Shown one piece after another: positions 20,358 to 39,703 of a stretch of DNA of 64,000 nt (positions are counted from its first letter, which is position 1; every line of letters begins with the position of its first letter). The translations under genes were made by a program, and so were the position numbers. This DNA is from Emticicia oligotrophica DSM 17448 (GTDB lineage Bacteria; Bacteroidota; Bacteroidia; Cytophagales; Spirosomataceae): positions 62,001 through 126,000 of the forward strand of contig NC_018748.1 of the NCBI RefSeq assembly GCF_000263195.1, read 5' to 3'. The notes under the pieces are model-generated. The model ran no database searches, was not told where the DNA came from, and was given only the letters and a program-made list of their open reading frames with translations.

Positions 20358-20475
20358 AACATTTAGAACTGATTGGTTAGTTTTACCAACCACATAATTT
20401 CTTGCAATTTAATACTTTAATTCCGTAACGACATTTTATTTTGTATGATACTTGTCACATCAGATATTGAGCCTG

Positions 20476-20763
20476 CTATAAAAAACGTCGTACAAGTACT
20501 TCCCACTCTTCATCAAGCGAAATTTTAGGCATATTTTCGCCACATCTTCTATACCAATAATTGGCATTAAAACGGTCGCCTTCCTTTCGATGTAAATACG
20601 CATGAAGTTGGTCATAACTCAAGGTTCCTTCTTTAGTTTGAGCAATATTATGAGCTGCTTCCCAATCTCCTTTGGCATCATGCCACAAGGCCTGTACTAA
20701 AATAGGCAAATCTTTAGGCACTTGAGCGTCATTTAGGGTATTTTTAAAACTACTAAAATCCAT
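20476..20763 (-). CDS. conserved hypothetical protein, 95 residues
   Basis: A soluble 95-residue protein. It contains PILVQALWHDAKGDW and, further on, HAYLHRKEGDRFNANYWYRR. The regular WEAAHNIAQ and YLHRKEGD segments suggest a short helical protein, perhaps a TPR-like fold. I recall similar short proteins in Bacteroidota and Proteobacteria annotated only as hypothetical. No catalytic motif or signal is visible. It stands alone between the ABC-F gene and the divergent LtaS-like gene. Confidence 0.75.
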   Translation of the reverse strand: MDFSSFKNTLNDAQVPKDLPILVQALWHDAKGDWEAAHNIAQTKEGTLSYDQLHAYLHRKEGDRFNANYWYRRCGENMPKISLDEEWEVLVRRFL

Positions 20764-20793
20764 TATTTTCTATAAGTTCGAGCTAATATTTAT

Positions 20794-20801
20794 TAATTTT
20801 G
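20794..20801 (+). promoter_or_regulatory. TAnnTTTG promoter element for the LtaS-like gene
   Basis: TAATTTTG at 20794-20801 matches the Bacteroidota -7 element and lies 44 nt before the start codon. The -33 element is poor (TTTTC at 20766-20770). Confidence 0.35.
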
Positions 20802-20844
20802 CATCAAATTTAACAATAAAACATCCTCCTTTGAGGAATTTCTT

Positions 20845-22737
20845 ATGTATTTATTCGTGTGGTTGAAACGTATTACGTGGTTAGTAGTTTTTTATTTCTT
20901 GCTTCGATTTTTATTCCTTTTTTTCAACATTAAATCTTTTCAATTCGCTGATGCCCAACAAATTAGTTATGCTTTTTTGTATGGTTTGAAATTCGATTTA
21001 TCGGCCATTTTTATTAGTAATATTTTATTTACAATTGCTTCGCTCCTACCCTTTAAATTTATTGAGAAACAAAGCTATCAAAACTCCTTAAAATACATTT
21101 ATTGGATTCCCAATATCATCTTTTTCTGGACCAATATTGCCGATTTTGAATATTATAAATTCATTGGAAGAAGAACAATTTTTGAGATTTTTGGCATTAT
21201 GGGCGATGTTTTTGCCCAATCATTTAGCTTATTGAGTTCTTATTGGTATTTAATCGTTTTGTGGGGAATAGTTAGTTTCTTATTCGTCAGATTTACTCCT
21301 AACAAAAAACAAGCTGATGTTTTACCAAGATTCAACTTACCAGTTGGCATCATCGTTTGGCTTTTGGCTATCGGCTTCACTATCTTATTTTTTAGAGGCG
21401 GTTTTCAGGAAAAACCTTTGCGAATCAATCAAGCCTTCGAGCAACACGATAATCATTTAGGGAATCTGACCCTAAATACTACCTTCACGTTTCTAACAAC
21501 CATTGATGCGAAGGGCACTGAAAAAGTTAGTTACTTTACTGATAATAAAGCAGTTGAACGATTGATTAGCAGAGATAGAAGTTCACATTTTGAGAAAACC
21601 ACAACTCCTCCAAATATAGTGGTTATTATTCTTGAAAGTTTTGGAAAAGAATACATGGGTTATAAAAATCCCTACAAAGGTTATACTCCATTTTTAGATT
21701 CATTGGCCAAGAAAAGTGTTTTTATGGAAAATTGTTTTGCTAATGGTCGTGAATCAATTATTGCCATGCCTTCCATTACAGCAGCCATTCCACAACTAAT
21801 TGAAGAACCTTTTATTACTTCAAGTTATCAATCTAATAAATTTGTGGGACTGGGCACAATCATGAAGCAATTTGGTTATACTACTTCATTTTTTCATGGT
21901 GCCCGGAATGGTTCAATGGGTTTTGAAGGATTTTCTCAATTAGCCGGTTTTGATAAATATTATGGTATAAATGAATATCCAAAAGATAAGTACAAGACAG
22001 ATTTTGACCAAAATTGGGGTATTTTTGATGAACCTTATTTAGAATATTTTGCCCAAGAATTGACCAAGGAGAAAAATCCATTTGTAGGCTGTGTTTTTAC
22101 GCTAAGTTCGCACCACCCCTACCCGATTCCTAGTAAATACAAGGGTCGTTTTCCAAAAGGTAAAGCCGAAATACACGAAAGTTTAGGCTATACTGATTTA
22201 TCGCTCAAACATTTTTTTTCAGAAGCAGCCAAACAACCTTGGTTTGCTAACACTCTTTTTATCATTACGGCTGACCATACGCAGTTTAATACCGAACCCA
22301 TTTATGCCACGCCAACTGGGGCATACAGAGTTCCTTTGATTTTATTTCATGCAGATAATGCGAAACTTAATGAAATAAAGCAAAAAGTAGATACTTTAAA
22401 AGTTTGTCAGCACACTGATATTCTACCTACAATTTTAGATTTTTTACATATCTCGCAAAATCAAGTTTTACCTTTTGGGGAATCAATTTTCGCTCAAAAT
22501 ACAGGTAAAGCTTTTCAATTAAATTCTGGCGTGTTTAGATTTATTAGTAAATTTCCAAATCATCAGTCAATTGAATATCTTGAAATGGGAATTGATGGTA
22601 AAGCCAAATTTTTCGATTTAAAAGCTAAAGAAATAAAAGTGAATGATGGGGAAGAAAAAACATTCACCGAGCAAATAAAGGCCTACATACAATTTTATCG
22701 AAATGGACTTATAGAAAACTCATGGAGCAAGAACTGA
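20845..22737 (+). CDS. LTA synthase family sulfatase-fold membrane enzyme
   Basis: A 630-residue protein with five N-terminal membrane helices (about 10-30, 45-68, 83-100, 125-150, 165-185) and a large C-terminal sulfatase-like domain outside the membrane. Metal and nucleophile motifs are E264 in VVIILESFGKEYMG, candidate nucleophile S304 in NGRESIIAMPS, SSHHPYP, and TADHTQF. LtaS-type enzymes transfer phosphoglycerol or phosphoethanolamine groups. Gram-negative bacteria lack classical lipoteichoic acid, so here it probably modifies a periplasmic glycan or lipid. It overlaps pxpB by 16 nt, so the two are probably co-transcribed. Confidence 0.88.
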   Translation: MYLFVWLKRITWLVVFYFLLRFLFLFFNIKSFQFADAQQISYAFLYGLKFDLSAIFISNILFTIASLLPFKFIEKQSYQNSLKYIYWIPNIIFFWTNIADFEYYKFIGRRTIFEIFGIMGDVFAQSFSLLSSYWYLIVLWGIVSFLFVRFTPNKKQADVLPRFNLPVGIIVWLLAIGFTILFFRGGFQEKPLRINQAFEQHDNHLGNLTLNTTFTFLTTIDAKGTEKVSYFTDNKAVERLISRDRSSHFEKTTTPPNIVVIILESFGKEYMGYKNPYKGYTPFLDSLAKKSVFMENCFANGRESIIAMPSITAAIPQLIEEPFITSSYQSNKFVGLGTIMKQFGYTTSFFHGARNGSMGFEGFSQLAGFDKYYGINEYPKDKYKTDFDQNWGIFDEPYLEYFAQELTKEKNPFVGCVFTLSSHHPYPIPSKYKGRFPKGKAEIHESLGYTDLSLKHFFSEAAKQPWFANTLFIITADHTQFNTEPIYATPTGAYRVPLILFHADNAKLNEIKQKVDTLKVCQHTDILPTILDFLHISQNQVLPFGESIFAQNTGKAFQLNSGVFRFISKFPNHQSIEYLEMGIDGKAKFFDLKAKEIKVNDGEEKTFTEQIKAYIQFYRNGLIENSWSKN

Positions 22738-23405
22738 TAAATAATTTCAAGATTTTCCCACTCAGTGATTCTTCAATCACCATTGACTTTGGTAATGTGA
22801 TTGATGAAAAGCTGAATGATATTGTAATGAATTTGTTTGATTTTTGCAATAAACAACCATTTATTGGAATGAAAGAAGCAATACCAGCTTATGCTTCCTT
22901 GACAATTTTTTATGATATACTTGCTGTAAGAAATCAGTATCCAACTTTCAATACTGCTTTTGATTTTGCTGTAAACTACTTACAAAATGCAGTTACTCAA
23001 TTAGGAGAAATCAAATCTGCAAAAAATCGACTTATTGAAATTCCCGTTATTTACGATGGTGAAGATTTAGCTTATGTAGCTAAATTTCATGGACTAAGCG
23101 AAAAAGAAGTTATTAGATTTCATACAGCTCCCATTTACAGGGTTTATATGATGGGATTTTTACCAGGTTTTGCTTATATGGGAGGTTTAGATACACGTAT
23201 TGCAACCCCACGTAGGTCTAGTCCACGTACAAAAGTACCTGAAGGAAGTGTAGGTATTGCAGGAAATCAAACTGGAATTTACCCAACAGAAAGCCCCGGT
23301 GGTTGGCAATTAATTGGTCGAACTGAAGTAGAACTTTATACCCCAAATTCTGAAGAAATCACTTTACTCAAAGCAGGAGATTCGATAAAATTTATTGCAA
23401 TTTGA
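22722..23405 (+). CDS. pxpB: 5-oxoprolinase subunit PxpB (KipI-like)
   Basis: A 227-residue KipI-family protein. The N-terminal part starts FKIFPLSDSSITIDFG. The C-terminal cyclophilin-like domain has the strong block MMGFLPGFAYMGGLD near 141-155, then TPRRSSPRTKVPEGSVGIAGNQ and SPGGWQLIGRT. PxpA, PxpB and PxpC together cleave 5-oxoproline to glutamate with ATP. The usual neighbours pxpC and pxpA are not next to it but 13 kb downstream at 36544-38125 on the same strand. It overlaps the LtaS-like gene upstream by 16 nt. Confidence 0.93.
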   Translation: MEQELINNFKIFPLSDSSITIDFGNVIDEKLNDIVMNLFDFCNKQPFIGMKEAIPAYASLTIFYDILAVRNQYPTFNTAFDFAVNYLQNAVTQLGEIKSAKNRLIEIPVIYDGEDLAYVAKFHGLSEKEVIRFHTAPIYRVYMMGFLPGFAYMGGLDTRIATPRRSSPRTKVPEGSVGIAGNQTGIYPTESPGGWQLIGRTEVELYTPNSEEITLLKAGDSIKFIAI

Positions 23406-23490
23406 TGTTCATAAACAAAAAATAGTGATATAAAACCTTAATTTTACATTGGTTAAACGCATTAAATATCAAATAATTTGACAAAGGATG

Positions 23491-23590
23491 TAGCATTAGG
23501 CACTCTATATCGGTAGAAATGTAAGTATTCGTATTAGCGTGCCGTAGGTACGCAACAGTCAAAAGCAGCAGTATCACCTACGGCACACCA
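23491..23590. repeat. REP-like intergenic repeat with hairpin at the pxpB-PUL junction
   Basis: GTGCCGTAGGT (23539-23549) is inversely repeated as ACCTACGGCAC (23576-23586) with a 26-nt spacer. It is preceded by a segment with TAGGCACTCTATATCGGTAG. The GC-rich arms stand out from the AT-rich surroundings. From memory, segments with this CCGTAGGTACGCAAC core are scattered between genes in Cytophagales genomes; this cannot be checked from the window. It could also end transcription of both flanking convergent genes. Confidence 0.55.
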
Positions 23591-23603
23591 TTTGAAATTA
23601 AAT

Positions 23604-24275
23604 CTATTTCAAAGGAGTTAAATCTACTTTTCTAAATTCTACTTCAGCACCTTCCGCTTGAAGAGCAATTTGGCCTTTTTGGGCGGTTGCTCCGTAGCCA
23701 TCATTAACCAAATCGCCGTTTACCCATACCTTTATTCTATCACCTTTACACTCCACAACCATTCTGTTCCATTCACCTAAAGGTTTTTCTGAATTATCAG
23801 TCAGGTTTTTTATTCTTCTTTCTTTACCTTCCGTAATTCCCCAATTTTCTTTGGGTCCCCTTCGGGTTTCCATATTATCAACCTTTATATCTTCTACAAT
23901 ACACCAAAAATCACCCGCATTTTCGTGCATCATCTGCACTTCAATTGATTTAGGGAACATGGCATATAAAGCTCTAGGTGTTGATGCATGCACCAAAACG
24001 CCACAATTTCCGGGTTTTCCCGCAAAACGATATTCTACTTCTAATCTATAATTTTCGTAAGAATCTTTGGTCAATAGATGGCCTTCTGGAGTACCCATAC
24101 TCACTAATTTACCATCCCTGATAATAAATGATTTTCTAATATTGGGGTCTTTATCGACCGCAGGCACATCGCTGTACCAATTACTTAAATCTTTGCCATT
24201 ATATAGATGAATCGTTTGGGCTTTGCACTGCAAACCAATAAAATAGATTAGAATAATAGAAAAAAAACACTTCAT
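23604..24275 (-). CDS. exported DUF1080 (3-keto-disaccharide hydrolase domain) protein
   Basis: A 223-residue secreted protein (signal peptide about 1-19). It begins HLYNGKDLSNWYSD, then has KPGNCGVLVHAS, ENAGDFWCIVED and a C-terminal GQIALQAEGAEVEFRKVDL, all typical of the DUF1080 concanavalin-like fold. Related proteins act on 3-keto-glycosides. It is the last gene of the minus-strand operon with two heparinase-like enzymes and a TIM barrel, 12 nt after its neighbour. The Gfo/Idh-type dehydrogenase that normally makes 3-keto substrates is not in the window, so it may instead bind or hydrolyse a lyase product. Confidence 0.85.
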   Translation of the reverse strand: MKCFFSIILIYFIGLQCKAQTIHLYNGKDLSNWYSDVPAVDKDPNIRKSFIIRDGKLVSMGTPEGHLLTKDSYENYRLEVEYRFAGKPGNCGVLVHASTPRALYAMFPKSIEVQMMHENAGDFWCIVEDIKVDNMETRRGPKENWGITEGKERRIKNLTDNSEKPLGEWNRMVVECKGDRIKVWVNGDLVNDGYGATAQKGQIALQAEGAEVEFRKVDLTPLK

Positions 24276-24287
24276 TTTGTTAGGAAA

Positions 24288-26204
24288 TTAATTGAGTCCC
24301 AAAGTAAACGAATTTTTCGATTTTTGTACTAAACTTTTAGCATTCAAAATAATTCTTTGAACAGGTAGATTATCCCATTTTGTTTTGAAACTTACATACT
24401 CCATGCCTTCAGTTGATGGTAGCTCAATAGATAAATCCCAAATTTTAGGGTCATATTGTAGGCTAACTACTTGACCTTTTGGCGTTTTAAGCAAAATTTT
24501 ACCCGCTATTGAAGTATCAATTGTACAGATTGTCATGAATACTTGTTGTAAAGAAGTTGGTTTGTTACTCAAAACATAATCGTCTGTCAACTCCACTGTA
24601 TTTTTTACACGATTGAGTTTTACTGTTCTATTCCAAGACTGAATACCTGCTTCTTTTTCATAAGCACCTGCAATGTCAAGACTAAGTGTAGCCTCTTTTT
24701 CAGAAATTGTACTTTTCACATTCGTCGCCTCGAATTGTCGGCCATCTTTCTGCCCAAAGCCATTGATTATCGGCAAATTATGATAATTTGATTGTGTAAA
24801 CCAAAGTTCATAGCGTTTATTTGAGAAAGTACGAGCTGTATAATTCCCACGACCTGCATCAATAATTACAGGTTCGCCATTGGCATAAAGCATAAAATCG
24901 CCAACATCATTATGGTTATGACTTTCGGCATTGTGCCCGCCATGAGTTGCCATGAAGAAACCATTTTTTGCACGAGCAGTAAGTACTTGAATATCAGCAA
25001 ACCATGCATCATTTACTGGAATATATGGCATGGTTTCTTTGGGTAATTGCTTGATTGATAGTAGATTTTCAATTCTTCTCGGACGATGATATGAACCACC
25101 CATTGAGGCAGAACTGAAATTTCTAAACGCCCATTGCCCCATTTGAATCATTTTTTCATCTTTAATGGCATTACCAAAACGATAAAGCATTAAGCCATCA
25201 GGACGAAGTTTGGGGTCTGCATCGGCAAAATTTACGAAGTAATAACCATCAATATGTGTTTTATATACATACGATGCCATTTTTTTGATGAGTGGTTCTT
25301 CATAAATGTTTATCTGATTTTTAGTTGCATTTGATAGCAGTTCTAAACAATCATAAACACTCGCCCCCGCTGCAAACCAATAGCTTGGACCTTCATCACA
25401 GCCACCATCTTCACCTAAACCATTGAGATAAAGATCAGTACCGAGCATTGTACCATATAGCATCTCTGCACGACGTTTTTCATCTTTTTCAAGTAAGAGT
25501 GTTGCAGAAATCCAATTAGACATAATCCAAGGGTTCCAGTTATTAACAGGCTTAGTTTTACTCATCCAACCATAACTATCGGCTTTGGTCATCATCGGCT
25601 CAAAGATTCGCTTATTTGTTTCATAATACATTCGCTTACGAATAAGCTTGCTAATTTTATCTAATTTTTCACCAACAAAATAATCAACCAAACCCATGAG
25701 CGAAGCTGTTTCGGCCGAAAATAAATCTACCACAGGATTTTCAACATCTGGTAATCCTCTAATGTGTGCTGGTACTCCCCAATAGCTTTCTTCACAAATA
25801 GACCAAACACCATTGAAGATTGCTTCCATGAAACGCCCTTTATTTTCAATACTTTCAGCTAATAATAAATCTGTAAGGGCATTTCGTTTCCCATAAGATA
25901 ATTTTCCGTGACGTTCGCGATCGCCCGAACGCACATAATCTAATGAAACCGTGCCCGAAATTGCCTCAAACTTAAAATCGAGGAGATTCTCTCCATTTTT
26001 TACGATTTGTTTAAGCACACTATCAGGAACGGCAGCTTGCCATTCCTCAGGAGTTTTTGGATATGGATGGTACTCATTAAATGGAATTAATGCTTTTTTG
26101 ACATCATCCACGGTATATTTTTTGGCAAAAATATTTCGTTGTGTAATTTGTGCTATTCCTATATGACTAATCAGAATAGCAACAAAAAATATAATTTTTT
26201 TCAT
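24288..26204 (-). CDS. heparinase II/III family polysaccharide lyase, copy 2
   Basis: A 638-residue secreted protein (signal about 1-18) with an alpha/alpha-toroid followed by a beta-sandwich. Candidate catalytic residues in family positions are the NNWNPW block (221-226), Y275 in GPSYW, and a His-rich THGGHNAESHNHNDVGDF block in the sheet domain. Family members cleave uronic-acid glycans such as heparin, heparan or alginate by beta-elimination. It is 15 nt from the TIM barrel gene and 12 nt from DUF1080. It is clearly distinct from the other heparinase-like gene of the same operon, so the two may cut different linkages. The exact PL family was not decided. Confidence 0.87.
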   Translation of the reverse strand: MKKIIFFVAILISHIGIAQITQRNIFAKKYTVDDVKKALIPFNEYHPYPKTPEEWQAAVPDSVLKQIVKNGENLLDFKFEAISGTVSLDYVRSGDRERHGKLSYGKRNALTDLLLAESIENKGRFMEAIFNGVWSICEESYWGVPAHIRGLPDVENPVVDLFSAETASLMGLVDYFVGEKLDKISKLIRKRMYYETNKRIFEPMMTKADSYGWMSKTKPVNNWNPWIMSNWISATLLLEKDEKRRAEMLYGTMLGTDLYLNGLGEDGGCDEGPSYWFAAGASVYDCLELLSNATKNQINIYEEPLIKKMASYVYKTHIDGYYFVNFADADPKLRPDGLMLYRFGNAIKDEKMIQMGQWAFRNFSSASMGGSYHRPRRIENLLSIKQLPKETMPYIPVNDAWFADIQVLTARAKNGFFMATHGGHNAESHNHNDVGDFMLYANGEPVIIDAGRGNYTARTFSNKRYELWFTQSNYHNLPIINGFGQKDGRQFEATNVKSTISEKEATLSLDIAGAYEKEAGIQSWNRTVKLNRVKNTVELTDDYVLSNKPTSLQQVFMTICTIDTSIAGKILLKTPKGQVVSLQYDPKIWDLSIELPSTEGMEYVSFKTKWDNLPVQRIILNAKSLVQKSKNSFTLGLN

Positions 26205-26219
26205 TCGGATTCTTTAGTT

Positions 26220-27044
26220 TTAATAGCGGTCTAACATATCTAAAATTCCTCTTACATAACCGACTGATTCGGCTAATCCATTCTCTGCATTTTCGGCATC
26301 TTTTTCATATTCAATACTCATAATTCCTTGGTAATTCACTTCTTTTAATGCCTTCAATACTTTCGGAATATCAATGACACCTCTACCAATTTGAATACCG
26401 TCATTTTTTGCTTCAAAGCCATCTACATCTTTAAGGTGCATGTCATACATCCTATGTCCGTACTTCTTTATCGCTTCCACAGGATTCATTCCGAGCCTCA
26501 CTACGTGACCAATATCAATACACAATCCAATACGCTTATCTAATTTTTCAATCTTTTGGTAAACCGTTGCTGGGGTAGGATAAACATCATCACCAGGACC
26601 ATGATTATGTATGGCCAACTTGATGTTAGTCTCTTTTACGTACTTCTCAACCAATGGCAGTAGGTCATGATTCGGAACTCCAATGATAATCGACATTCCT
26701 GCGGCTTGTGCGTATCTGAACGCATTTTTTACTTCTGCTTCATTTTTCATATAAATTACGCCACCACCAAAAACATCCAAACCAGCAGCTTTTACTTTAC
26801 CAATTGCCTCCTTAATCTGTGCTTCAGAGGCATCTAAAGGCAAATGGAAGTTTTTAAGAGCTATTTCTTTGATATTCAATCGTTTACAAATACCTATCAC
26901 TTGCTCCAAGGTATATTTACGAAGTGTGTACGAAGCTAAACCAATGGTTAGTTTTGTAGTTTTAGGCGAAATTTTAGTAGCAAGCGGTAAAGCTACAGTT
27001 CCTAAACTTAAGCTTCGAATAAAGTCTTTTCTTGAGTATTTCAT
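26220..27044 (-). CDS. sugar phosphate isomerase/epimerase-type TIM barrel with export signal
   Basis: A 274-residue xylose-isomerase-like TIM barrel. Metal-site-like strands are IAIHNHGPGD, GLCIDIGHVVRLG, MYDMHLKDVDG and IMSIEYEKD. The first 30 residues (YSRKDFIRSLSLGTVALPLA) look like a Tat-type signal with only one Arg of the pair, which suggests export. Sugar epimerases or isomerases of this family are common in polysaccharide loci. It lies between the two heparinase-like genes with gaps of 15 and 28 nt, so it is one operon. Substrate is unknown; an uronic or 3-keto sugar would fit. Confidence 0.82.
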   Translation of the reverse strand: MKYSRKDFIRSLSLGTVALPLATKISPKTTKLTIGLASYTLRKYTLEQVIGICKRLNIKEIALKNFHLPLDASEAQIKEAIGKVKAAGLDVFGGGVIYMKNEAEVKNAFRYAQAAGMSIIIGVPNHDLLPLVEKYVKETNIKLAIHNHGPGDDVYPTPATVYQKIEKLDKRIGLCIDIGHVVRLGMNPVEAIKKYGHRMYDMHLKDVDGFEAKNDGIQIGRGVIDIPKVLKALKEVNYQGIMSIEYEKDAENAENGLAESVGYVRGILDMLDRY

Positions 27045-27072
27045 ATTTAATTTTGGTTAGAAAATAGAGAAT

Positions 27073-28941
27073 TTATTTCCAATCTTTTAAAACCTGAGAT
27101 TTTGATTTGGTCTTTGCACCTTCAGGAATTAATTGAACTTCTAAAGTTGAATTTGTATTAGGCGATAAATTTGCTTCAAAACCTACTAAAATAGTTCCAT
27201 CATTAGCCGCGTCATAATCATGTGGAGGTTTAGTTGACCATGTTTGTATTGTTTTATTTGCAGGTTGAATTACTTTCAAAATCAATTTTTTACCATTCTG
27301 ACTTAGCTCAACTGTTTGATTATCAATTACTTTTACATCAGCAGGTGTTAGCATCGACCATCTGACAGTGCTTGCCTTTTCATTCGCTACGATTTCATCT
27401 TTTACCAAAACATATTGTTGGTCAATGATTGCTATTCCTCGCTTGGCAGAAGCTACTTGTCCATTATAAACGGCACTCATATCAGTTGTCGCACTTAGAA
27501 AATTAGGTTTACTGGTCGTTGAATTAATTGATGCGAACCCCTCCACACGTTGGTGCTGCATATTAATTGCCAAGGTACTATGGGCTAAATTATTGTAGCG
27601 AAAAACTTCCCATCGCTCTGAATTTTGTGCCATTCCCCATAATTTTACCCCCTTTGATTCGAGCGACTCGTACTCTTGCATGCCAAAATCCATCGACCAT
27701 CTTTGGCCATTGGCATCCATAACAAAAGAGCCGACATCCATGTGACCATGATTTACTGAAGGAGATCCAGCTTTTAGTCCGACATAAATAGCTTCGGGTT
27801 TCGACCAAGACGTACGCATCATTGCTACAGGGTTTTTACCTTGTCCAACCCATAATAACTCCTTGGGTTCAATAAGTTTATCCAAAGAAATTCCTTTTCC
27901 CCAAATCATAGCCGCAGGCAAAAGACGGTCTTTCGCCATTGATTTATCTTTACCTTGTAAGTATTGTTTTTCTAAATATAACAAACTTGGATTATTGGTA
28001 CGATTGGCAAACCAAAACATAGCAGGGCTAAGCCCAGTACCATTGCCCGCATCTGAGTAATTAAAACTTTTACCTGAAGCACCAATCATTTGCTGGAAAT
28101 AGCCTGCAGTCTTTAAAAAACCAGCGGTATTCGATAATTCAAAATCGGTATTAAAAACTTTTTTGATTGCATCAAGAAACATTACGTTAAAACTTGTTCC
28201 ATAGCCCCAATAGCTATAACCTTCTGGGTAAGCACCTTCTGGCTTATAGTCTTGCATGGGAAGTTTTATAGATTCAATGGCACGCTCAATGATTTGATTA
28301 GAAAAAACAGGATTTTCTTCATAAATCGCTAAAGCCCCGTAGGTCATTCCTGCATTACACACTTGATTCCAATTATGTGAGGCCTTTAACCAAGAATTGT
28401 ATTTTGAATCAAGCGATGGCTCAATTCCCTTTTTCAGAATAGCTTCTTTGATAATATTTTTTGCAGAAAGGCTCAAATCATCATATAACCAATCATAACC
28501 AATCGCTACGCCCATGGTCATTTCGGCCACATCAAGAAAATGCGTTGGGTTCCAATCACTAAATTGAGATACTTTCACAAGTTCTCGTTCTGCACGTAAA
28601 AGATATTTTTTATCCTTAGTTGTTCGAAAAGCATAACTCAGAAAAAATACTCGTCTAAGACATTCACGAGATTTATCCAGTAGGCGTCGCCCAATTTGAA
28701 TTCTTTCCAAGGTTGGTAAACCGATTATTTCATCGGCTTCTTTGATGATATTTCCATGAAGGATTTTCCAGTTAGGGTCAACACTGACACTTTTCAAAAT
28801 ACCCTGTTCTTCTCCTTTTAATAATAATATTCTTGGATGTGATGCTACAGGCACCGTTTCGGGAATATGTTTTGTTTGCCCACAAACAATCAAAGAAGAG
28901 CCAAAAAGGCTTATTTGAAATAAAAATTGTCTTAGTTTCAT
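27073..28941 (-). CDS. heparinase II/III family polysaccharide lyase, copy 1 (alginate-lyase-like)
   Basis: A 622-residue secreted protein (signal about 1-21) of the alginate lyase plus heparinase II/III type. The toroid has KASHNWNQVCNAGM with N190 and H189, then EGYSYWGYG with Y242/Y244. The sheet domain has VNHGHMDVGSFVMD with H398 and H400. These are candidate neutraliser, base and acid residues for beta-elimination. PL15, PL17 and PL21 members share this layout, acting exolytically or endolytically on alginate or heparin-like chains. It is the first gene of the four-gene operon and starts after the SusD terminator, so it needs its own promoter or readthrough. Confidence 0.87.
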   Translation of the reverse strand: MKLRQFLFQISLFGSSLIVCGQTKHIPETVPVASHPRILLLKGEEQGILKSVSVDPNWKILHGNIIKEADEIIGLPTLERIQIGRRLLDKSRECLRRVFFLSYAFRTTKDKKYLLRAERELVKVSQFSDWNPTHFLDVAEMTMGVAIGYDWLYDDLSLSAKNIIKEAILKKGIEPSLDSKYNSWLKASHNWNQVCNAGMTYGALAIYEENPVFSNQIIERAIESIKLPMQDYKPEGAYPEGYSYWGYGTSFNVMFLDAIKKVFNTDFELSNTAGFLKTAGYFQQMIGASGKSFNYSDAGNGTGLSPAMFWFANRTNNPSLLYLEKQYLQGKDKSMAKDRLLPAAMIWGKGISLDKLIEPKELLWVGQGKNPVAMMRTSWSKPEAIYVGLKAGSPSVNHGHMDVGSFVMDANGQRWSMDFGMQEYESLESKGVKLWGMAQNSERWEVFRYNNLAHSTLAINMQHQRVEGFASINSTTSKPNFLSATTDMSAVYNGQVASAKRGIAIIDQQYVLVKDEIVANEKASTVRWSMLTPADVKVIDNQTVELSQNGKKLILKVIQPANKTIQTWSTKPPHDYDAANDGTILVGFEANLSPNTNSTLEVQLIPEGAKTKSKSQVLKDWK

Positions 28942-29005
28942 GTGTTAGAGAGGGATTGAAAAAGAGACCCAAAGGGTGATTAATTTATCGAAGATACAAA
29001 AAATT

Positions 29006-29037
29006 AATGCTCTCTCCGTATAAATGGAGAGAGCATT
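29006..29037 (-). terminator. terminator after the susD-like gene
   Basis: AATGCTCTCTCC (29006-29017) and GGAGAGAGCATT (29026-29037) form a perfect 12-bp stem with an 8-nt loop. On the minus strand it is followed by a T-rich run. It separates GH88-SusC-SusD from the lyase operon. Confidence 0.85.
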
Positions 29038-29052
29038 ATATAAATTTAATGC

Positions 29053-30672: not shown

Positions 30673-30751
30673 AATAATAAATTATTGCGTTTTTGAACTT
30701 CGGATTTGAGGTATTGATTACTATTCAATACTTTTTTTGACGAATCAATGA

Positions 30752-33700
30752 TTAAAAATTAAGGTTTAAACCAACTGATGCCGTAGCAAAGAAAGGATAA
30801 TCGTTTTCAATATTATCTCTTTGTTCTGGGTCAAAATATCCTTTAAAGTTGCCCAACTTCGAGAATGTAAGAATATCTTGTGCCGAGAAGAATACCCTTG
30901 CTCTAGAAATCTTAATTCTATTCGTTAATTTTTCTGGAATGGTATAACCTACTTGTAAGTTTTTCAAACGAGCATATTGCCCATTTAACAACCACTTATC
31001 AGAAACACGATAATTGTGAGTACCACCAGTGTAAGGACGTGGGTAAAGAGCATTAGGATTTTCTGGAGTCCAATAATCACGGTGAATAGCTAAAGCCTGT
31101 TTCCAAGTTACTAAAAGTGGAGCAATCGTTTCTGTTTCTGGGCGGAATGAGCGTTTACCAACCCCCTGAATAAATGCAGAAAAATCGAATCCTTTGTAAT
31201 TAAAGCCTAAAGTTGTACCAAAAACCATACGTGGTTGAGTCGTTCCAAGAAAAACTAAGTCACCAAAATCAGAAGTATTACCCTTACCAACATTGATTTT
31301 TGCATCACCATTCAAATCTAAATATTTAACATCTCCAGATCCAGTTCTGTTATCTTGGAAAGCCCAAGCTTTTACTTCATCAGCCGTTTGGAAATATCCA
31401 TCTGTCAAATAACCAAAAACACTATTAAGTGGATAGCCTTCAACAATACTATTTGTTCCTGCCGATACTATATTTCTACCAGCAAAATTCAAAAGCTTAT
31501 TTTGATTATCCGATAAGTTCGCAGCGATTGTATAAGAGAAGTCTTTACCTATTTGGCCTCTGTAACGTGCCTCCAGTTCCCATCCCCAAGATTTCAGCTC
31601 ACCATTATTTTTTCTTGGTGTCCCAATTCCAATAACCGCTGGGAGATTTTGCGGAGTAAGCATATTTCGGTTATACTTCACATAATAATCACCATTCAAG
31701 TTTAATTTATTTTTGAATAATCCTAAATCAAAACCAACATTAGTGGTTTCGATTGTTTCCCAAGAAAGAGATTGAGATGGAATAGAACTTTGGAATAAAT
31801 AAGAAGCACGAGAATCGCCTAATACTAAGGCCGAACCTCTACTCAACTGGCTTAGGTAATCATAATTTCCAATGGTACTTCCTCCAAGTGCACCTCCTAA
31901 ACGCCCCCAAGAAGCACGTAACTTAAGTTCCGATACAAAGTTTATATCTTTCATGAATCCTTCACGATGTAAATTCCAGCCCACAGATGCAGAAGGGAAT
32001 AACTTAACACGCAAATTTGGAGCTAACTTTGAATTTTCATCACGACGAATCGTAGCTTCAATTAAATATTTGCCATCGTAGTTATAATTTATGCGGCTGA
32101 ATACCGATTGAGAGGCATTTGTAGCAATAGATTGACTGTTTGTTTTGGTTTTATCATCACCTAAATTAAGTGTAGGTAAATCATTACTCACCAAGTTTGT
32201 TGCTCCAGCTACCATGTTTTCGAATCTGAAATCTTCGTAGTTATAACCAACCAATAAGCCAAGATTATGTTTCTCTTTGAAAGTTTTATCATAATTAGCT
32301 AAAAACTGAAGGTTAGTATTATTTGTTCGTTCATCAGTTAGGGTGTAGCCATTAACTTGATTGATGTAGCTTAAAATCTTACCTCTACCCCAAAGCGGTA
32401 CAGTTCGTGCAAAGTTAGCTCTATCACCAATGCGGTATTGTGTTCCTACCACTGCACGCAAGGTTAAACCCTTAACAATATTTGCTGCTTTAAGTGTAAC
32501 GGTTCCGTCGTAATAATCTCTTGCATAACGGTTATATCCTCCAGACTCTAAACGTGCGTAAACTGTTGCAGCAGAACCAGCACCATTATATTGACCATCT
32601 GGTGTAAAAAATGGCGTACGAGTACGTAAACGATAAATTTCGTACATTAAACCTTGACCATTCAAATTGCCAGAAGCAGCATCTTGCTGGTCTTTTGTAT
32701 AAGAAAGGCGGGCATCGAGTGAGAAAATTTTACTTAATTGTGCCCCTAAATTCAAGCGAAGATTGTATCTCTTATAACCATCTGGTCCGATTTTAAAAAC
32801 ACCACTTTTTCCATAATAACCACCTGACAACAAGAAATTTAATTTTTCATTGCCCCCCGACATGCTCAAATTTTGAGTAGTCATAGAAGAGTACTTTCTC
32901 AGTACTTGGTCAGTTAATGGAACTTGGTTGTAGAAAAGCCAAGTGGTTGTATCAGCAGGATTCACTACGTAAGGCACTCCATCTCTTATACGCTGTAAAT
33001 CTACATCTGAATATTCAGGACCACTTCCTGAGTTTTTTCGAGATAAATTAGAAAACTCAGCTTCTTCCAATAGAGACATACGTTCTGGAACATTGATAGA
33101 CCAATCTGTTCCTTGTTGTGCCAAATAACTAAACTTAACTTTACCAGTTTTTGCTTTTTTGGTAGTCACTAAAATTACCCCACCCGCAGCTTGTGCTCCA
33201 TAAATTGCAGCAGCAGCGGCATCTTTCAATACACTAATGCTTTCTACATCATTTGGGTTAAGCGATTGGAGAGTATTACTTGGCATCGTAACTCCATCAA
33301 CAATCAATAAAGGTTCGATGCTGCCGTTGGCTGAAGAGGCACCACGAATCTGGATACCAATTCCTTCACTACCTGGTTGTCCGCTCGAACGAGTAATAAT
33401 TAACCCAGGACTCGTCCCTTGCAAAGCATTCGCTAAATTACTGGCAGGACGGTTTTCAATAACTTTAGAGTCAATCGTTGAAACGGCTCCTGTAAGATTT
33501 ACCTTTTTTTGGGTACCATAACCAACTACTACCACCTCCTCAAGGGATTTCGCATCGGAGTTCATACCAACAATAATACTTGTCTGATTTCCAACTACAA
33601 TTTCTTGTGTTTCATAGCCTAAGAAGCTAAAAACCAAAATTGAGGTCTTACTTGGAACTTTGATTGAAAAATCACCTTTGGCATCAGTTGTAGCTCCGCG

Positions 33701-33895
33701 AGATGTACCTTTAATGGTGATACTCACACCGGGTAAAGCTTCGCCTTTTTCAGCATCGCTTACTTTACCTGTTATGGTGATGTCGGCAGCGAAGGCTTGG
33801 CTTCCCAAAAAACAAAGCAAAAATAAAAGTTTTGTGATAAACCGTGCACACAACGGCTTACCCCACTGACAATACGACAGTAGATTTTTTTTCAT
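30752..33895 (-). CDS. SusC/RagA family TonB-linked outer-membrane transporter
   Basis: A 1047-residue protein. After the signal peptide (about 1-37) comes a carboxypeptidase-regulatory-like domain (about 40-125, with GKVSDAEKGEALPGVSI). Then comes EVVVVGYGTQKKVNLTGAVS and the plug domain, and a long 22-strand-type barrel. The C-terminus ends in the aromatic strand SVGLNLNF. It imports oligosaccharides with SusD, powered by TonB. It lies 80 nt after the GH88 gene and 80 nt before susD, all minus strand, so one transcript from a promoter upstream of GH88 is likely. Confidence 0.95.
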   Translation of the reverse strand: MKKNLLSYCQWGKPLCARFITKLLFLLCFLGSQAFAADITITGKVSDAEKGEALPGVSITIKGTSRGATTDAKGDFSIKVPSKTSILVFSFLGYETQEIVVGNQTSIIVGMNSDAKSLEEVVVVGYGTQKKVNLTGAVSTIDSKVIENRPASNLANALQGTSPGLIITRSSGQPGSEGIGIQIRGASSANGSIEPLLIVDGVTMPSNTLQSLNPNDVESISVLKDAAAAAIYGAQAAGGVILVTTKKAKTGKVKFSYLAQQGTDWSINVPERMSLLEEAEFSNLSRKNSGSGPEYSDVDLQRIRDGVPYVVNPADTTTWLFYNQVPLTDQVLRKYSSMTTQNLSMSGGNEKLNFLLSGGYYGKSGVFKIGPDGYKRYNLRLNLGAQLSKIFSLDARLSYTKDQQDAASGNLNGQGLMYEIYRLRTRTPFFTPDGQYNGAGSAATVYARLESGGYNRYARDYYDGTVTLKAANIVKGLTLRAVVGTQYRIGDRANFARTVPLWGRGKILSYINQVNGYTLTDERTNNTNLQFLANYDKTFKEKHNLGLLVGYNYEDFRFENMVAGATNLVSNDLPTLNLGDDKTKTNSQSIATNASQSVFSRINYNYDGKYLIEATIRRDENSKLAPNLRVKLFPSASVGWNLHREGFMKDINFVSELKLRASWGRLGGALGGSTIGNYDYLSQLSRGSALVLGDSRASYLFQSSIPSQSLSWETIETTNVGFDLGLFKNKLNLNGDYYVKYNRNMLTPQNLPAVIGIGTPRKNNGELKSWGWELEARYRGQIGKDFSYTIAANLSDNQNKLLNFAGRNIVSAGTNSIVEGYPLNSVFGYLTDGYFQTADEVKAWAFQDNRTGSGDVKYLDLNGDAKINVGKGNTSDFGDLVFLGTTQPRMVFGTTLGFNYKGFDFSAFIQGVGKRSFRPETETIAPLLVTWKQALAIHRDYWTPENPNALYPRPYTGGTHNYRVSDKWLLNGQYARLKNLQVGYTIPEKLTNRIKISRARVFFSAQDILTFSKLGNFKGYFDPEQRDNIENDYPFFATASVGLNLNF

Positions 33896-33974
33896 AAAAG
33901 GTGAGTTTAAAATGGATAGTTAAATGTTTATTATCTTAGTTTCTTGTTAAAAATGAGTGTAATTAACTTATATT

Positions 33975-35168
33975 TTAAAATAGTTTCTGCTTATTTTTGA
34001 GTGCTTCATATCTTAAAAGACCTTCTAAATAATAATAATCGGCATAAACAAGTGGTACATCTACTTCTGAATTACCAGGCTTATGACCAGTACTATGCAT
34101 TAAAATAAAGTGATTATTTTTGCCCAATTCGGCTTTGAAAGCTGGTGTAGATAGGGTTTCAAGCATTTTTACAGCTGAATTATAGTATTTTTTTGCATCT
34201 TTTCCTCCATAAGTGCTCAACTCTAATAATGCAGAAGCAGCAATTGCACCAGCAGAAGCATCACGTTCTTCACCTGGCTTACTAAAATCCCAGTAAGGAA
34301 TTTTATCAGCTGGTAATGTAGGGTTATTTAGATAGAAATTGGCAATATTTCGGGCATGATCTAGATACTTTGCATCTTTAGTTTCACGATACATAACAGT
34401 GTAGCCGTATAAACCCCAAGCTTGCCCTCTAGACCAAGCAGATTCATCTGCCGCACCCTGATGAGTCTTTCTTGCTAATACTTCCCCATTATCTCCATAA
34501 CACAACACATGATAACTACTATAATCAGGGCGATAATGGTTTTTCATAGTATTATCGGCGTGCGTTACGCTTAGATTATAAAAATCTTTGTTTCCTGATT
34601 CTTTGGCCGCCCAAAACAAAAACTCCAGATTCATCATATTATCAATAATTACTGGATATTTATATCCTCCTTTGAAACTCTCCCATGATTTAATCAAACC
34701 AACTTTCGAATTAAATCGTGTAGCCAGAGACTTTGCCCCAACAAGCATAACCTCCTTATAATCAGGATTTTTAGTAAGTCGATACCCATTTCCAAACGGA
34801 CAATAAAGCATAAATCCTAAATCATGTGTACGAGTATTAAACTTTTCTTTTTCAACGGCCATCGTCCACTTTTCAGCGGCAGCCTTCCATTTGGGGTCAT
34901 GATTAAATTGATAGATATACCATAAAGACCCACCAAAGAATCCACTGCACCACCATTCAGATTTCATATCTCTAGGCGAACCATCTGGATTTGTTGATTG
35001 AGGAAACTTCGTTATATCTTGATGTGCCGCAAGCATTCCTTCATATTGCTTCGCTGCAAACTCAAACTCTTTTTTTACATCAAGTTTACTTTGGCCAATC
35101 GCAGAAAGTGCCGATAATAATACTAGGCTGAAATACAACTTCACTAAGGATTTTCTTTGCATAATCAT
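33975..35168 (-). CDS. GH88 unsaturated glucuronyl hydrolase
   Basis: A 397-residue secreted protein (signal about 1-26) of the (alpha/alpha)6 barrel type. Two key Asp residues match the GH88 catalytic pair: D116 in NTRTHDLGFM and D176 in YPVIIDNMMNLE. The loop DESAWSRGQAWGLYG (242-256) with R247 is also typical. GH88 removes the 4,5-unsaturated uronic acid left at the non-reducing end by polysaccharide lyases, giving a keto acid. It heads the GH88-SusC-SusD operon. Alternative start at the Met 2 codons later. GH105 (rhamnogalacturonyl hydrolase) is related, but the surrounding lyases favour GH88. Confidence 0.9.
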   Translation of the reverse strand: MIMQRKSLVKLYFSLVLLSALSAIGQSKLDVKKEFEFAAKQYEGMLAAHQDITKFPQSTNPDGSPRDMKSEWWCSGFFGGSLWYIYQFNHDPKWKAAAEKWTMAVEKEKFNTRTHDLGFMLYCPFGNGYRLTKNPDYKEVMLVGAKSLATRFNSKVGLIKSWESFKGGYKYPVIIDNMMNLEFLFWAAKESGNKDFYNLSVTHADNTMKNHYRPDYSSYHVLCYGDNGEVLARKTHQGAADESAWSRGQAWGLYGYTVMYRETKDAKYLDHARNIANFYLNNPTLPADKIPYWDFSKPGEERDASAGAIAASALLELSTYGGKDAKKYYNSAVKMLETLSTPAFKAELGKNNHFILMHSTGHKPGNSEVDVPLVYADYYYLEGLLRYEALKNKQKLF

Positions 35169-35297
35169 TTTTTATTTAATATTAAAAAAGTACAATTTTA
35201 CTTCAACCTTTAGGCCTATATGTCGAAATAATTTAATTTATTATTAATGTCGAGAATAACATATTTTTTTTGAATATAATGTAGATATATTCATTGT

Positions 35298-35305
35298 CAA
35301 AGATA
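35298..35305 (-). promoter_or_regulatory. candidate -7 element for the GH88-SusCD operon
   Basis: CAAAGATA on the plus strand is TATCTTTG on the minus strand, a perfect match to the Bacteroidota -7 element. It is about 130 nt before the GH88 start. The -33 element is poor. Confidence 0.35.
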
Positions 35306-35344
35306 AAATAGTAAAAAAACTATATATTTTTATTCCAATTAAAT

Positions 35345-35380
35345 GCAAACGTAACCGCAAACGTAACCGCAAACGTTTGC
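35345..35380. promoter_or_regulatory. LacI-type operator array: three GCAAACG sites in 12-bp steps
   Basis: GCAAACGTAACC occurs at 35345-35356 and again at 35357-35368, followed directly by the perfect palindrome GCAAACGTTTGC at 35369-35380. The palindrome is the classic LacI-family operator (CcpA/PurR-like centre AAACGTTT). It lies between the divergent GH88 operon and a lacI gene, 128 nt upstream of lacI. The two imperfect copies offer extra half-sites at near one-helix-turn spacing. Confidence 0.85.
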
Positions 35381-35508
35381 ATATTGAACTAAGTAAATTT
35401 CAATCTCTATAAAAATTTATAATATTTTCAAATAATATTTTTTTGTTTTTTTGAGACAAGAAATTGAGAATTAATAAATAATATTGTAAAAATTATATTT
35501 TCAATCCA

Positions 35509-36525
35509 ATGCATAGAACCACTCCTGTTACTATTAAAGACATCGCACAAGCTCTTAATATTTCTGTCTCAACAGTATCGCGTGCCTTGCGAGGAATGCC
35601 TGAGATTCACCCAGAAACAAAAAAAACAATTTTGAAATTGGCTGAAGAAATGGATTATCAACCCAATCAATTAGCCAAAAATTTAGTAGGCAACAGAACA
35701 AAAACTATCGGTGTTATTGTACCATCGCTTAGTTACTTTTTCTTCGCTTCAATGCTAAATAGCATAGAGGAAGCAGCCATGCAAGCAGGATACAGTGTGA
35801 TGGTTTGCCAAACGAATGAATCCTACTTAAGAGAAGTAGCACAAATTCAGAATATGCTAAACTCACAAGTTGAAGGGTTTATTATTTCTCTTGCAAGAGA
35901 TTCTCTAGATTTTGAACACATCAATCGTTTGATAAGAAAACAAATTCCAATTGTACTATTCGACCGATACAGTGATTCTATTGAAAGTTCTAAAGTAATT
36001 GTAGATAATAAACAAGCAGCTTTTAAAGCCACGAACCACATGATAGAGCGAGGTTGTAGAAGATTAGCGTGCTTAGCAGGCCCTCCTCATCTCGAAATTA
36101 GTAATCAACGTTTAGATGGGTTCCGCGAAGCCGTTATTAGCAATGGACTACCTTACGAAGAACAGTACGTAAGTCATAGTGACTTTACCCAAGAAAATAC
36201 TATAATTCAAGCTCATAACATGATGAGTTTGAGTATTCCACCCGATGGAATATTAACAATGAGCGATAATATCGCATTCTCCACTATGTTTGCCCTCAAA
36301 CAAAGAGGTTTAAGAATTCCTGAAGATGTGGCGATGGTTAGTTTCAATAATGAACCAACCTGCACCTATCTAACCCCATCTTTAACAAGTATCAGTCAGC
36401 CAATCAGAGAAATGGGCACCCAAGCAATAAGGTTATTATTAAAGCAATTAGAATCCGATATCATTGAAAACGAAACAGTCGTTCTTGATACCCAATTGGT
36501 CATTCGTGAATCATCTTTAAGATAA
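35509..36525 (+). CDS. LacI family transcriptional regulator of the polysaccharide locus
   Basis: A 338-residue LacI/GalR regulator. The helix-turn-helix and hinge occupy about 6-60: TIKDIAQALNISVSTVSRAL, then NQLAKNLVGNRTKTIGVIVP. The periplasmic-binding-like core follows (about 65-335) with FDRYSDSIESSKVIVDN and SFNNEPTCTYLTPSLTSI. It very likely binds the GCAAACG array upstream and controls itself and the divergent GH88-SusCD operon in response to a breakdown product. Only 18 nt separate its stop from pxpC, so it probably shares a transcript with pxpC and pxpA. Confidence 0.92.
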   Translation: MHRTTPVTIKDIAQALNISVSTVSRALRGMPEIHPETKKTILKLAEEMDYQPNQLAKNLVGNRTKTIGVIVPSLSYFFFASMLNSIEEAAMQAGYSVMVCQTNESYLREVAQIQNMLNSQVEGFIISLARDSLDFEHINRLIRKQIPIVLFDRYSDSIESSKVIVDNKQAAFKATNHMIERGCRRLACLAGPPHLEISNQRLDGFREAVISNGLPYEEQYVSHSDFTQENTIIQAHNMMSLSIPPDGILTMSDNIAFSTMFALKQRGLRIPEDVAMVSFNNEPTCTYLTPSLTSISQPIREMGTQAIRLLLKQLESDIIENETVVLDTQLVIRESSLR

Positions 36526-36543
36526 TTTGATTATTTTTATCAG

Positions 36544-37374
36544 ATGAAATTTATAAAAAAAGGCATACTTACGAGTTACCAAGATTTAGGGCAAAAAGGA
36601 TTGCGTCATTTGGGTATAAACCCCAAAGGTGCAATGGATAGATATACTGCTCGAATTCTAAATATTGCTTTGGGAAAAAATGAAGAAGAGAAAGTTTTAG
36701 AAATGTATTTTCCAGCACCCGAAATTTTATTTGAAGAGGATTGTAGTATTATTATCGGCGGAGCAGATTTTTTACCTCATATTGATAATCAACCAATTAT
36801 GAACGAAAAAGTTATATCGGTCAAAGCGGGTAGTATTATTAGGTTTAAACGCAAAATTAATGGAAACATCGCCTATTTAGCATCTACTAAATCGCCAATG
36901 CTATTCAAGGCTCATCTTGGATTTTCAATAATAGAAAAAGAACCACACAAACTAATCAGATTTATTGAAGGACATGAATTTGAGCTGTTAGAAAACGAGA
37001 GTAGAAACTGGGTTGAAAATAAACCTTTTCAAATTTCTTCTAACTCAAATAGAATGGGTTTTCGTATGATAGGTGAACCTCTTTTATTAAAAGAGAAAAA
37101 AGAATTGATTTCTTCAGCCGTTGACTTTGGAACTATCCAACTACTACCCAATGGGCAATTAATTATTTTGATGGCTGACCACCAAACTAGTGGAGGATAC
37201 CCAAGAATCGGTAATATTATTTCAGCAGATATACATAAATTAGCACAATCTAGTATCAACGATTATATTTACTTGAAAAAAGTTTCTATTCAAGAAGCAG
37301 AAGATGCTTGCTTAGAACAAGAAAAAAATATCAAAAAACTTAAAGCCAGTATCAGATTTTTTAATGAATATTAA
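36544..37374 (+). CDS. pxpC: 5-oxoprolinase subunit PxpC (KipA, biotin-dependent carboxyltransferase family)
   Basis: A 276-residue KipA/AHS2 protein. It starts with GILTSYQDLGQKGLRHLGINPKGAMDR, the standard N-terminal block, and has SNRMGFRMIGEPL in the middle and LMADHQTSGGYPRIG towards the end. It is a little short for the family (often 290-330). PxpC works with PxpB and PxpA to hydrolyse 5-oxoproline in the cytoplasm. It overlaps pxpA by 11 nt, so the two are translationally coupled. Its partner pxpB is 13 kb upstream beyond the polysaccharide locus. LacI directly precedes it. Confidence 0.92.
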   Translation: MKFIKKGILTSYQDLGQKGLRHLGINPKGAMDRYTARILNIALGKNEEEKVLEMYFPAPEILFEEDCSIIIGGADFLPHIDNQPIMNEKVISVKAGSIIRFKRKINGNIAYLASTKSPMLFKAHLGFSIIEKEPHKLIRFIEGHEFELLENESRNWVENKPFQISSNSNRMGFRMIGEPLLLKEKKELISSAVDFGTIQLLPNGQLIILMADHQTSGGYPRIGNIISADIHKLAQSSINDYIYLKKVSIQEAEDACLEQEKNIKKLKASIRFFNEY

Positions 37375-38125
37375 ACAAATTGACCTAAACTGTGACATGG
37401 GCGAAGCCTTTGGCTCTTGGCCAATGGGAAACGACCAAAAATTGATGGAAGCGATTTCTTCAGCCAATATTGCTTGTGGTTTCCATGCAGGAGATGCTTC
37501 TATTATGAGAAAAACCGCTCAATTAGCACTTGAAAATGGCGTAGCTATTGGGGCACATCCAGGCTTTCCTGATTTACAAGGGTTTGGTCGTAGAAATATG
37601 CAACTTTCACCACAAGAAATTTACGATATTTGTGTCTATCAAATTGGGGCAATGTTTGGTACAGTAAGAGCTTTAGGTGGTAAACTACATCATGTAAAAC
37701 CGCACGGAGCTCTTTACAATATGGCCGCCAAAGATATTGCCTTAGCAAAAGCCATTGCAGAAGCCACTCGTGCCATTCACCCAGAATTAATTTTGTATGG
37801 TTTATCAGGTAGTCATTTAATTTCAGAAGCTGAAAAATTAGGTTTACGAACGGCATCTGAGGTATTCGCCGACAGAACCTACCAAAATGATGGTAGCCTA
37901 ACACCTCGTACGCACGCCAACGCTATGATAGAAGATACCTCTCTGGCCGTTGAACAAGTAATACAAATGGTGGAACAAAAAAGTGTATTCGCAACCGATG
38001 GCACAAAAGTAGGCATCAAAGCAGATACTATTTGTGTACATGGCGATGGAAATCATGCGGTGGAATTTGCATTTACGCTTAGAAAAGAACTACTTTTACG
38101 AAACATTACTATTAAACCTGTCTAA
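37364..38125 (+). CDS. pxpA: 5-oxoprolinase subunit PxpA (LamB/YcsF family)
   Basis: A 253-residue LamB/YcsF protein. The N-terminal signature DLNCDMGEAFGSW (8-20) is clear, then SSANIACGFHAGDA, GAHPGFPDLQGFGRR, and VKPHGALYN in the middle. These carry the conserved Asp/His residues of the polysaccharide-deacetylase-like fold. PxpA is the ATP-dependent hydrolysing component. The start overlaps the end of pxpC by 11 nt. An MFS permease follows after 34 nt. Confidence 0.95.
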   Translation: MNIKQIDLNCDMGEAFGSWPMGNDQKLMEAISSANIACGFHAGDASIMRKTAQLALENGVAIGAHPGFPDLQGFGRRNMQLSPQEIYDICVYQIGAMFGTVRALGGKLHHVKPHGALYNMAAKDIALAKAIAEATRAIHPELILYGLSGSHLISEAEKLGLRTASEVFADRTYQNDGSLTPRTHANAMIEDTSLAVEQVIQMVEQKSVFATDGTKVGIKADTICVHGDGNHAVEFAFTLRKELLLRNITIKPV

Positions 38126-38159
38126 TTTTATCTCAACTAACTGAAATTATAAGACTGCT

Positions 38160-39476: not shown

Positions 39477-39490
39477 TTCAAAAAGAATCA

Positions 39491-39522
39491 TTGGTATAAG
39501 TACACAAATTATAGTATATTTG
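39491..39522 (+). promoter_or_regulatory. promoter for the tRNA-Val/glycosyltransferase unit, overlapped by a 7-bp dyad
   Basis: TTGG at 39491-39494 and a perfect TATATTTG at 39515-39522 are 20 nt apart. The -7 element sits inside ATAGTAT-N7-ATACTAT (39511-39531), a perfect 7-bp inverted repeat that could be a repressor site. The tRNA starts about 90 nt downstream, so a leader would be removed. Confidence 0.4.
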
Positions 39523-39618
39523 TAATACTATTTCTATATTATTTACATATTTATTTCAAAATATTTGAAGTTTTATTCAATTTCAAATCATTTATTGAAT
39601 TTATACTACTTAAAATAA

Positions 39619-39693: not shown

Positions 39694-39703
39694 CGGTTTA
39701 TAT

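Follow-up and report, generated by a model that had tools for sequence, protein, structure and literature searches.

A LacI-linked polysaccharide locus lies between the 5-oxoprolinase genes pxpB and pxpC-pxpA of Emticicia oligotrophica and likely extends its control to two of the three subunits

We analyzed a 64,000-nucleotide stretch of the Emticicia oligotrophica DSM 17448 genome (contig NC_018748.1, positions 62,001 to 126,000; hereafter the window), in which the genes of the three-subunit prokaryotic 5-oxoprolinase lie apart. The pxpB gene (22722-23405) and the pxpC-pxpA pair (36544-38125; pxpC at 36544-37374 and pxpA at 37364-38125) are on the plus strand and pxpB is 13 kb from pxpC, so the usual adjacency of the three genes is lost. 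A search of the whole 5.2 Mb genome gave a single match each for pxpA, pxpB, and pxpC. Between pxpB and pxpC are seven genes of the opposite strand followed by lacI on the pxp strand. In order, the seven encode a 3-keto-disaccharide hydrolase domain protein (Pfam assignment; 23604-24275), a heparinase II/III-like protein here named hepA (Pfam assignment; 24288-26204), a xylose-isomerase-like TIM barrel protein (26220-27044), a second heparinase II/III-like protein here named hepB (27073-28941), a SusD-like protein (SusD_RagB; 29053-30672), a SusC/RagA TonB-linked receptor (30752-33895; 881.9 bits to TIGR04056, cut-off 368.25), and a GH88-like protein (Glyco_hydro_88; 33975-35168) that is divergent from lacI. 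A 37-bp putative operator array made up of a pair of 12-bp units and then the palindrome GCAAACGTTTGC (35345-35381) precedes lacI (35509-36525, plus strand; PF00356 and PF13377), which encodes the probable cognate regulator of the polysaccharide locus. An 18-nt gap (36526-36543) separates lacI from pxpC. The adjacent susC and susD genes, two Hepar_II_III_C matches, and the Glyco_hydro_88 match identify a SusC/SusD locus, and the heparinase- and GH88-like families suggest that its substrate is a glycan of the uronic-acid type. An earlier note, made from the sequence alone, had given these positions for pxpB and pxpC-pxpA, a polysaccharide locus between them, and a lacI gene ending 18 nt before pxpC, and all three points held when the open reading frames and profile matches were examined.

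Two of the three subunits were assigned without difficulty. PxpB scored 231.1 bits against CT_C_D and 207.7 bits against TIGR00370 (cut-off 145.55), which identifies it as PxpB, whereas PxpA scored 346.4 bits against PF03746 (LamB_YcsF, cut-off 22) and 361 bits against NF003814 (cut-off 226), although its 363.8 bits against the equivalog model NF003813 fell below the cut-off of 392. PxpC scored 177.1 bits against PF02626 (CT_A_B), above the cut-off of 25, but missed both TIGR00724 (185.1 bits, cut-off 230.2) and NF045499 (173.5 bits, cut-off 500) and thus does not classify as a full PxpC. As in the prokaryotic 5-oxoprolinase PxpABC of B. subtilis, E. coli, and C. glutamicum (pxpTABC), all three subunits are recognizable in one copy each, whereas the distance between the genes and the loss of most of one PxpC segment set the window system apart. 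Excerpts of PMC13274462 describe the C. glutamicum pxpTABC operon as controlled by PxpR, a GntR-type regulator, and fed by PxpT, an NRAMP-type transporter. Neither a GntR-type regulator nor an NRAMP-type transporter was found among the Pfam-scanned genes of window positions 17960-43071; an Atg22-like transporter stands at the window locus instead of an NRAMP-type PxpT.

In most bacteria, the three pxp genes are adjacent. The search covered 91 family genomes. Outside the genus, both pxpB and pxpC are present in 16 of them, and in 14 of these 16 the two are adjacent with hit-to-hit gaps of 4-132 nt. The exceptions are G080, where the pair is ~333 kb apart, and G035, where the two genes are on different contigs with other genes beside each. 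In a wider set of 80 loci pxpC was recognized in 72, with pxpB no more than 400 nt away in 60; the remaining 12 are nine loci of the genus, L031 (a G035 contig), and L091 and L097, in which the contig begins at pxpC. The comparison of gene order in relatives called for by the earlier note showed that not all are split. Genome G005 of the same genus retains pxpB-pxpC-pxpA, preceded by a DUF255 gene and followed by an Atg22-like gene, two glycosyltransferase genes, and an epimerase gene, with a pxpB-pxpC gap of about 340-370 nt. Genome G003 shares the flanks of G005 with two additions, genes for an M28 peptidase and a fatty-acid-hydroxylase-like protein, and its pxpB and pxpC are separated by a block of four genes (GH88-, hepB-, TIM-, and keto-like). 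The outer flanks are collinear between the insert-free G005 and the insert-bearing G003, which means that this block was inserted. Genome comparison therefore supports both the event and its polarity: pxpB and pxpC were once adjacent, and a polysaccharide locus was placed between them, as had been proposed from the window alone. A literature search gave no title or abstract on pxp genes split by a polysaccharide locus among the matches listed. Base composition was also considered as a sign of recent arrival and was uninformative: the GC content of 1-kb windows was 0.35-0.39 within the insert (24001-35000), 0.32-0.38 in 18001-23000 and 36001-42000, and 0.30 in 35001-36000.

Polysaccharide-locus genes occupy the place between pxpB and pxpC in eight genomes. 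Both junctions are visible in the window genome (G000), G002, G003, and G004. Only the pxpC side can be seen in G008 (where pxpB reaches the end of its contig), L035 (the contig ends within the locus), and G009 (pxpB is elsewhere), and only the pxpB side in G010, in which lacI and pxpC are each cut by contig ends.

The DNA upstream of lacI is unusually well conserved. In G000, G004, G008, and G009, 37 consecutive alignment columns are invariant, against 40% of the columns in the rest of the alignment. The second longest run of this kind spans 9 columns, and none exceeded 19 when the columns were shuffled 20,000 times. The 37-bp array is also present in G010, and is thus found upstream of lacI in all five lacI-bearing genomes of the genus. 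Exact matches to GCAAACGTTTGC occur at a single place in the window genome. Elsewhere in the genus, the palindrome was matched once in G003, twice more in G004, and once more in G008, each time next to different genes: before an 815-aa gene in G003 and G004, and, in G004 and G008, between two divergent genes that by eye resemble those for a sigma factor and a MarR-type protein (sites L132:9842, L134:6929, L133:6749, and L135:9666 for the 815-aa gene and the divergent pair together). At E ≤ 1e-110, 65 of 200 family genomes gave a lacI relative; five of the 65 belong to the genus, and 12 loci were chosen from the other 60. Nine of these 12 have a site with no more than 3 mismatches in 24 positions to a two-unit consensus, located at -211 to -116, whereas the best of 200 random sequences per locus had 6-8 mismatches. 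Of the other three, two had 7 mismatches, equal to the best random sequences, and one had 10. Note that the consensus was drawn by eye from the same loci that were then scored, and so the count is not an independent test. The helix-turn-helix and sugar-binding domains of LacI together with the conserved palindromic site upstream of its gene support a role as the locus's own regulator, with lacI itself and the divergent locus as its targets.

The same 12 loci bear on the origin of lacI. Eight of them have a gh88-like gene no more than three genes away from lacI, and no pxp gene match was found in any of the 12 fetched stretches. Hence, lacI goes with the polysaccharide locus rather than with the pxp genes. 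The window locus resembles the other LacI-linked SusC/SusD loci of the family in its operator-like array and its nearby gh88-like gene, and differs from them in that lacI is directly followed by pxpC. We infer that lacI came in with the other locus genes rather than later. The G003 block contains neither lacI nor SusC.

Does LacI control reach pxpC-pxpA? We favor, at a probability of about 0.65, an account in which a LacI-regulated polysaccharide locus split pxpB from pxpC and control by LacI likely reads through into pxpC-pxpA. The module would have separated pxpB from pxpC in an ancestor from which a single clade of the genus descends. LacI bound at the array between gh88 and lacI would most likely repress the leftward gh88-SusC-SusD genes as well as its own gene, a glycan breakdown product would release it from the operator, and transcription from lacI would most likely continue through pxpC and pxpA. 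The pxpB gene would be on a separate transcript, now behind a sulfatase-family gene, and the three subunits would therefore come from at least two transcription units. In this account the binding, autoregulation, effector, and read-through steps are proposed from sequence comparison, whereas the short lacI-pxpC gaps are observed directly. In the four genomes where the junction can be read, lacI and pxpC are on the same strand and separated by 18 nt (window), 34 nt (G004), 35 nt (G008), and 28 nt (G009). A scan of window positions 36200-36700 detected no plus-strand terminator, giving lacI-pxpC-pxpA the layout of a transcription unit. Moreover, no promoter element upstream of pxpC is conserved among the window, G004, G008, and G009. 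The Bacteroidota-type promoter consensus combines TAnnTTTG with a TTG at a set distance. No TAnnTTTG was found in the lacI 3' part of G004, G008, or G009; the window has one there, which was rejected as a promoter since no TTG lies at a fitting distance.

Several observations weigh against read-through being the sole or necessary route to pxpC expression. Four sigma-70-like matches were found on both strands, versus 1.9 (standard deviation 1.5) in shuffled sequences, and two of these four closely precede pxpC on the plus strand of the window. Four-fold degenerate sites at the lacI 3' end are 0.60 identical versus 0.42 overall; this comparison was set aside because it rests on 8 sites, which are too few. 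A promoter may thus lie inside the lacI 3' end. Three of the eight locus-bearing genomes (G002, G003, and L035, the last seen as a contig only) lack lacI beside pxpC and have kept pxpC-pxpA, with 668 nt, 170 nt, and ~734 nt of DNA before pxpC, respectively, and the G002 and G003 genomes contain no lacI ortholog at E ≤ 1e-110. Therefore, LacI is not required for pxpC-pxpA. The four-gene block of G003 may also be either the original state or a reduced one. A tree of five concatenated proteins (G035 and L048 with 14% of columns) sets G005, G001, G006, and G007 apart from the rest (97/96) and leaves the placement of G003, G000, and G035 unresolved; thus it settles neither the state of G003 nor the order in which lacI and SusC/SusD were gained or lost.

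The strongest competitor is a neutral break-up, in which the insertion had no regulatory effect, pxpC-pxpA kept or gained their own promoter, and lacI is close by chance. The lacI-free genomes and the sigma-70-like matches just described count in its favor, as does the looseness of the arrangement elsewhere. In G001, G006, and G007, the pxpB-pxpC gap holds other genes, including alcohol-dehydrogenase-like and esterase-like genes, and so the gap opened at least twice if the two gene sets came separately. The pxpB gene of G009 lies 32 kb away from pxpC on the opposite strand, and G080 and G035 also have the two genes unlinked. Against the neutral break-up stands the same-strand gap of 18-35 nt in four of four readable genomes; with no promoter element common to the four, some read-through would be hard to avoid. 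We regard the neutral break-up as possible but distinctly less probable than LacI read-through. The suggestion that the regulator now controls two of the three subunits accordingly survives in part: the palindrome found once in the genome, the short gaps, and the lack of a detected terminator or conserved promoter favor it, but the control cannot be obligatory given G002, G003, and L035. Coupling of 5-oxoproline cleavage to glycan supply would be possible for two of three subunits in the five lacI-bearing genomes. According to excerpts of PMC13274462, the regulation of bacterial 5-oxoproline metabolism had, to its authors' knowledge, not been studied before the GntR regulator; LacI control, if true, would add another scheme of a quite different kind.

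The other half of the former operon has also changed neighbors. In G002, G009, and G003, pxpB is 3' of the M28 peptidase gene and the DUF255 gene, whereas in G000, G004, G008, and G010 it is 3' of a sulfatase-family gene. In the window, the 3' end of this gene (20845-22737, plus strand) overlaps the start of pxpB by 16 nt; the spacing is 83 nt in G004 and 76 nt in G010. As the M28 gene adjoins a homolog of window 48360-48893 in G000 and G008, one inversion extending from pxpB to that homolog would explain the changed neighbors, making the sulfatase-family gene the probable new upstream partner of pxpB. One genus thus displays operon fission in stages: intact (G005), with a four-gene insert (G003), with the full locus (G000, G002, and G004), with other inserts (G001, G006, and G007), and with pxpB 32 kb away (G009), all subunits being under selection. 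The survival of a multi-subunit enzyme through operon splitting thereby becomes directly testable.

A REP-like (repetitive extragenic palindrome-like) inverted repeat without assigned strand (23539-23586) lies between the converging pxpB and polysaccharide locus. The element is real, with perfect 11-nt arms (23539-23549 and 23576-23586), but it does not mark the pxpB side of the insertion as the earlier note had it. An 18-mer from the element has seven genome matches at ≤2 mismatches, itself included, and the corresponding gaps of G002, G004, and G010 contain other sequence. As the repeat is dispersed and those gaps differ, it was rejected as an insertion scar; in G003 there is hardly any gap at this place. 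In G002 and G004, the gap between pxpB and the keto-like gene holds short repeated sequence of the TTGGGGAA/TTATTGGGAAA type instead.

The most useful fact to emerge beyond the earlier note is that PxpC is shortened (276 aa in the window). That note had the split and its direction right, and missed the shortening, the pxpB inversion, and the other gap genes in three congeners. A segment in the middle of the protein has 21-34 residues in all seven clade genomes in which it can be read (G000, G002, G003, G004, G008, G009, and L035), versus 52-80 residues in 65 other genomes, including G005, G001, G006, and G007. The window protein has 22; the site falls at residues 115-137 (36886-36954), and its counterpart in E. 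coli YbgK is residues 116-173. The segment was measured as aligned residues between two anchors, with L097 (168 aa) and the cut PxpC of G010 excluded; this count replaced a strict search for the GSxST motif, which was too narrow and missed many full-length proteins. Separation alone is not tied to shortening, since PxpC is full length in G001, G006, G007, and G035, in which the genes are also split. A single ancestral event may account for the shortening, whose link with the insertion therefore rests on one clade.

Shortening raises the question of whether the enzyme is decaying in this clade, with its genes split and the PxpC segment mostly lost. Consistent with decay, the window PxpC falls below the two curated model cut-offs given above, and among the genes compared between G000 and G004, pxpC (60%) and pxpB (70%) show the lowest conservation. 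However, the reading frames are open throughout, and dN/dS for pxpB and pxpC was 0.07-0.20 in the pairs with finite dS, as in congeners with full-length PxpC. These ratios come from nine pairs (NG86 method), among which dS was often >1 or non-finite, no ratio then being counted, and some PxpC gene calls used start late (248 aa). They indicate that pxpB and pxpC are under purifying selection. The predicted fold also seems intact: the window PxpC model (mean predicted local distance difference test score 86.4) aligned with E. coli YbgK (5dud_A) at Z 29.8, root-mean-square deviation 2.5, over 263 residues, and the SNSNRMG and MADHQTSGGYPR stretches are retained. We therefore consider decay unlikely and infer that the shortened protein still works as PxpC and supports 5-oxoprolinase activity. 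Note that the role of PxpC with PxpB, 5-oxoproline phosphorylation, is termed assumed in excerpts of PMC13274462; the clade offers a natural deletion in this subunit.

A more speculative view is that PxpC and PxpA under LacI have been re-purposed with PxpB, either to open a glycan-derived lactam, such as might form when an amino sugar reacts with a carboxyl group, or for 5-oxoproline salvage confined to times of glycan digestion. Insertion and shortening would then belong together. We give this view little credence, less than decay; if it were true, a housekeeping enzyme would have been recruited into a polysaccharide locus via operon splitting.

Relatives of the polysaccharide locus occur elsewhere in the genus. 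About 113 kb from its pxp genes, G005 carries an orthologous susC-susD-hepB-hepA set whose proteins are 72%, 77%, 68%, and 61% identical to those of the window, respectively. Its SusC (L136:13364-16825) has an N-terminal STN domain and is preceded by a FecR gene, whereas a Pfam scan reported no STN domain for the window SusC. Thus, the G005 set looks to be under sigma/anti-sigma-like control, in contrast to LacI at the window locus, which suggests that one kind of locus has switched regulators. That pxpC-pxpA instead moved to a pre-existing polysaccharide locus is the least probable account of all: it would suit the orthologous SusC proteins (72-74%) encoded away from pxp in G005, G006, G007, and G001, but both outer pxp flanks (DUF255 on one side and the Atg22-like, two glycosyltransferase, and epimerase genes on the other) are collinear in G005 and G003.

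Some features beyond pxpA also vary. The Atg22-like gene, which encodes a major facilitator superfamily transporter (38160-39476, plus strand, 34 nt 3' of pxpA in the window), comes after pxpA in all 11 genus genomes, either as the next gene or with one or two genes in between, and among the loci compared its only match outside the genus is in L047 (33%). It is a candidate for the last gene of the lacI-pxpC-pxpA transcript, and its product could carry 5-oxoproline or amino acids. In G002, G003, G004, G008, G009, and G010, pxpA is separated from the Atg22-like gene by a fatty-acid-hydroxylase-like gene (the assignment is based on Pfam analysis of the G004 copy, L111:5720-6490), which is missing from this place in the window (38126-38159). 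Finally, the pxpA matches of G031, G043, and G067 contain one internal stop codon, which is either real or the result of alignment past the gene end.

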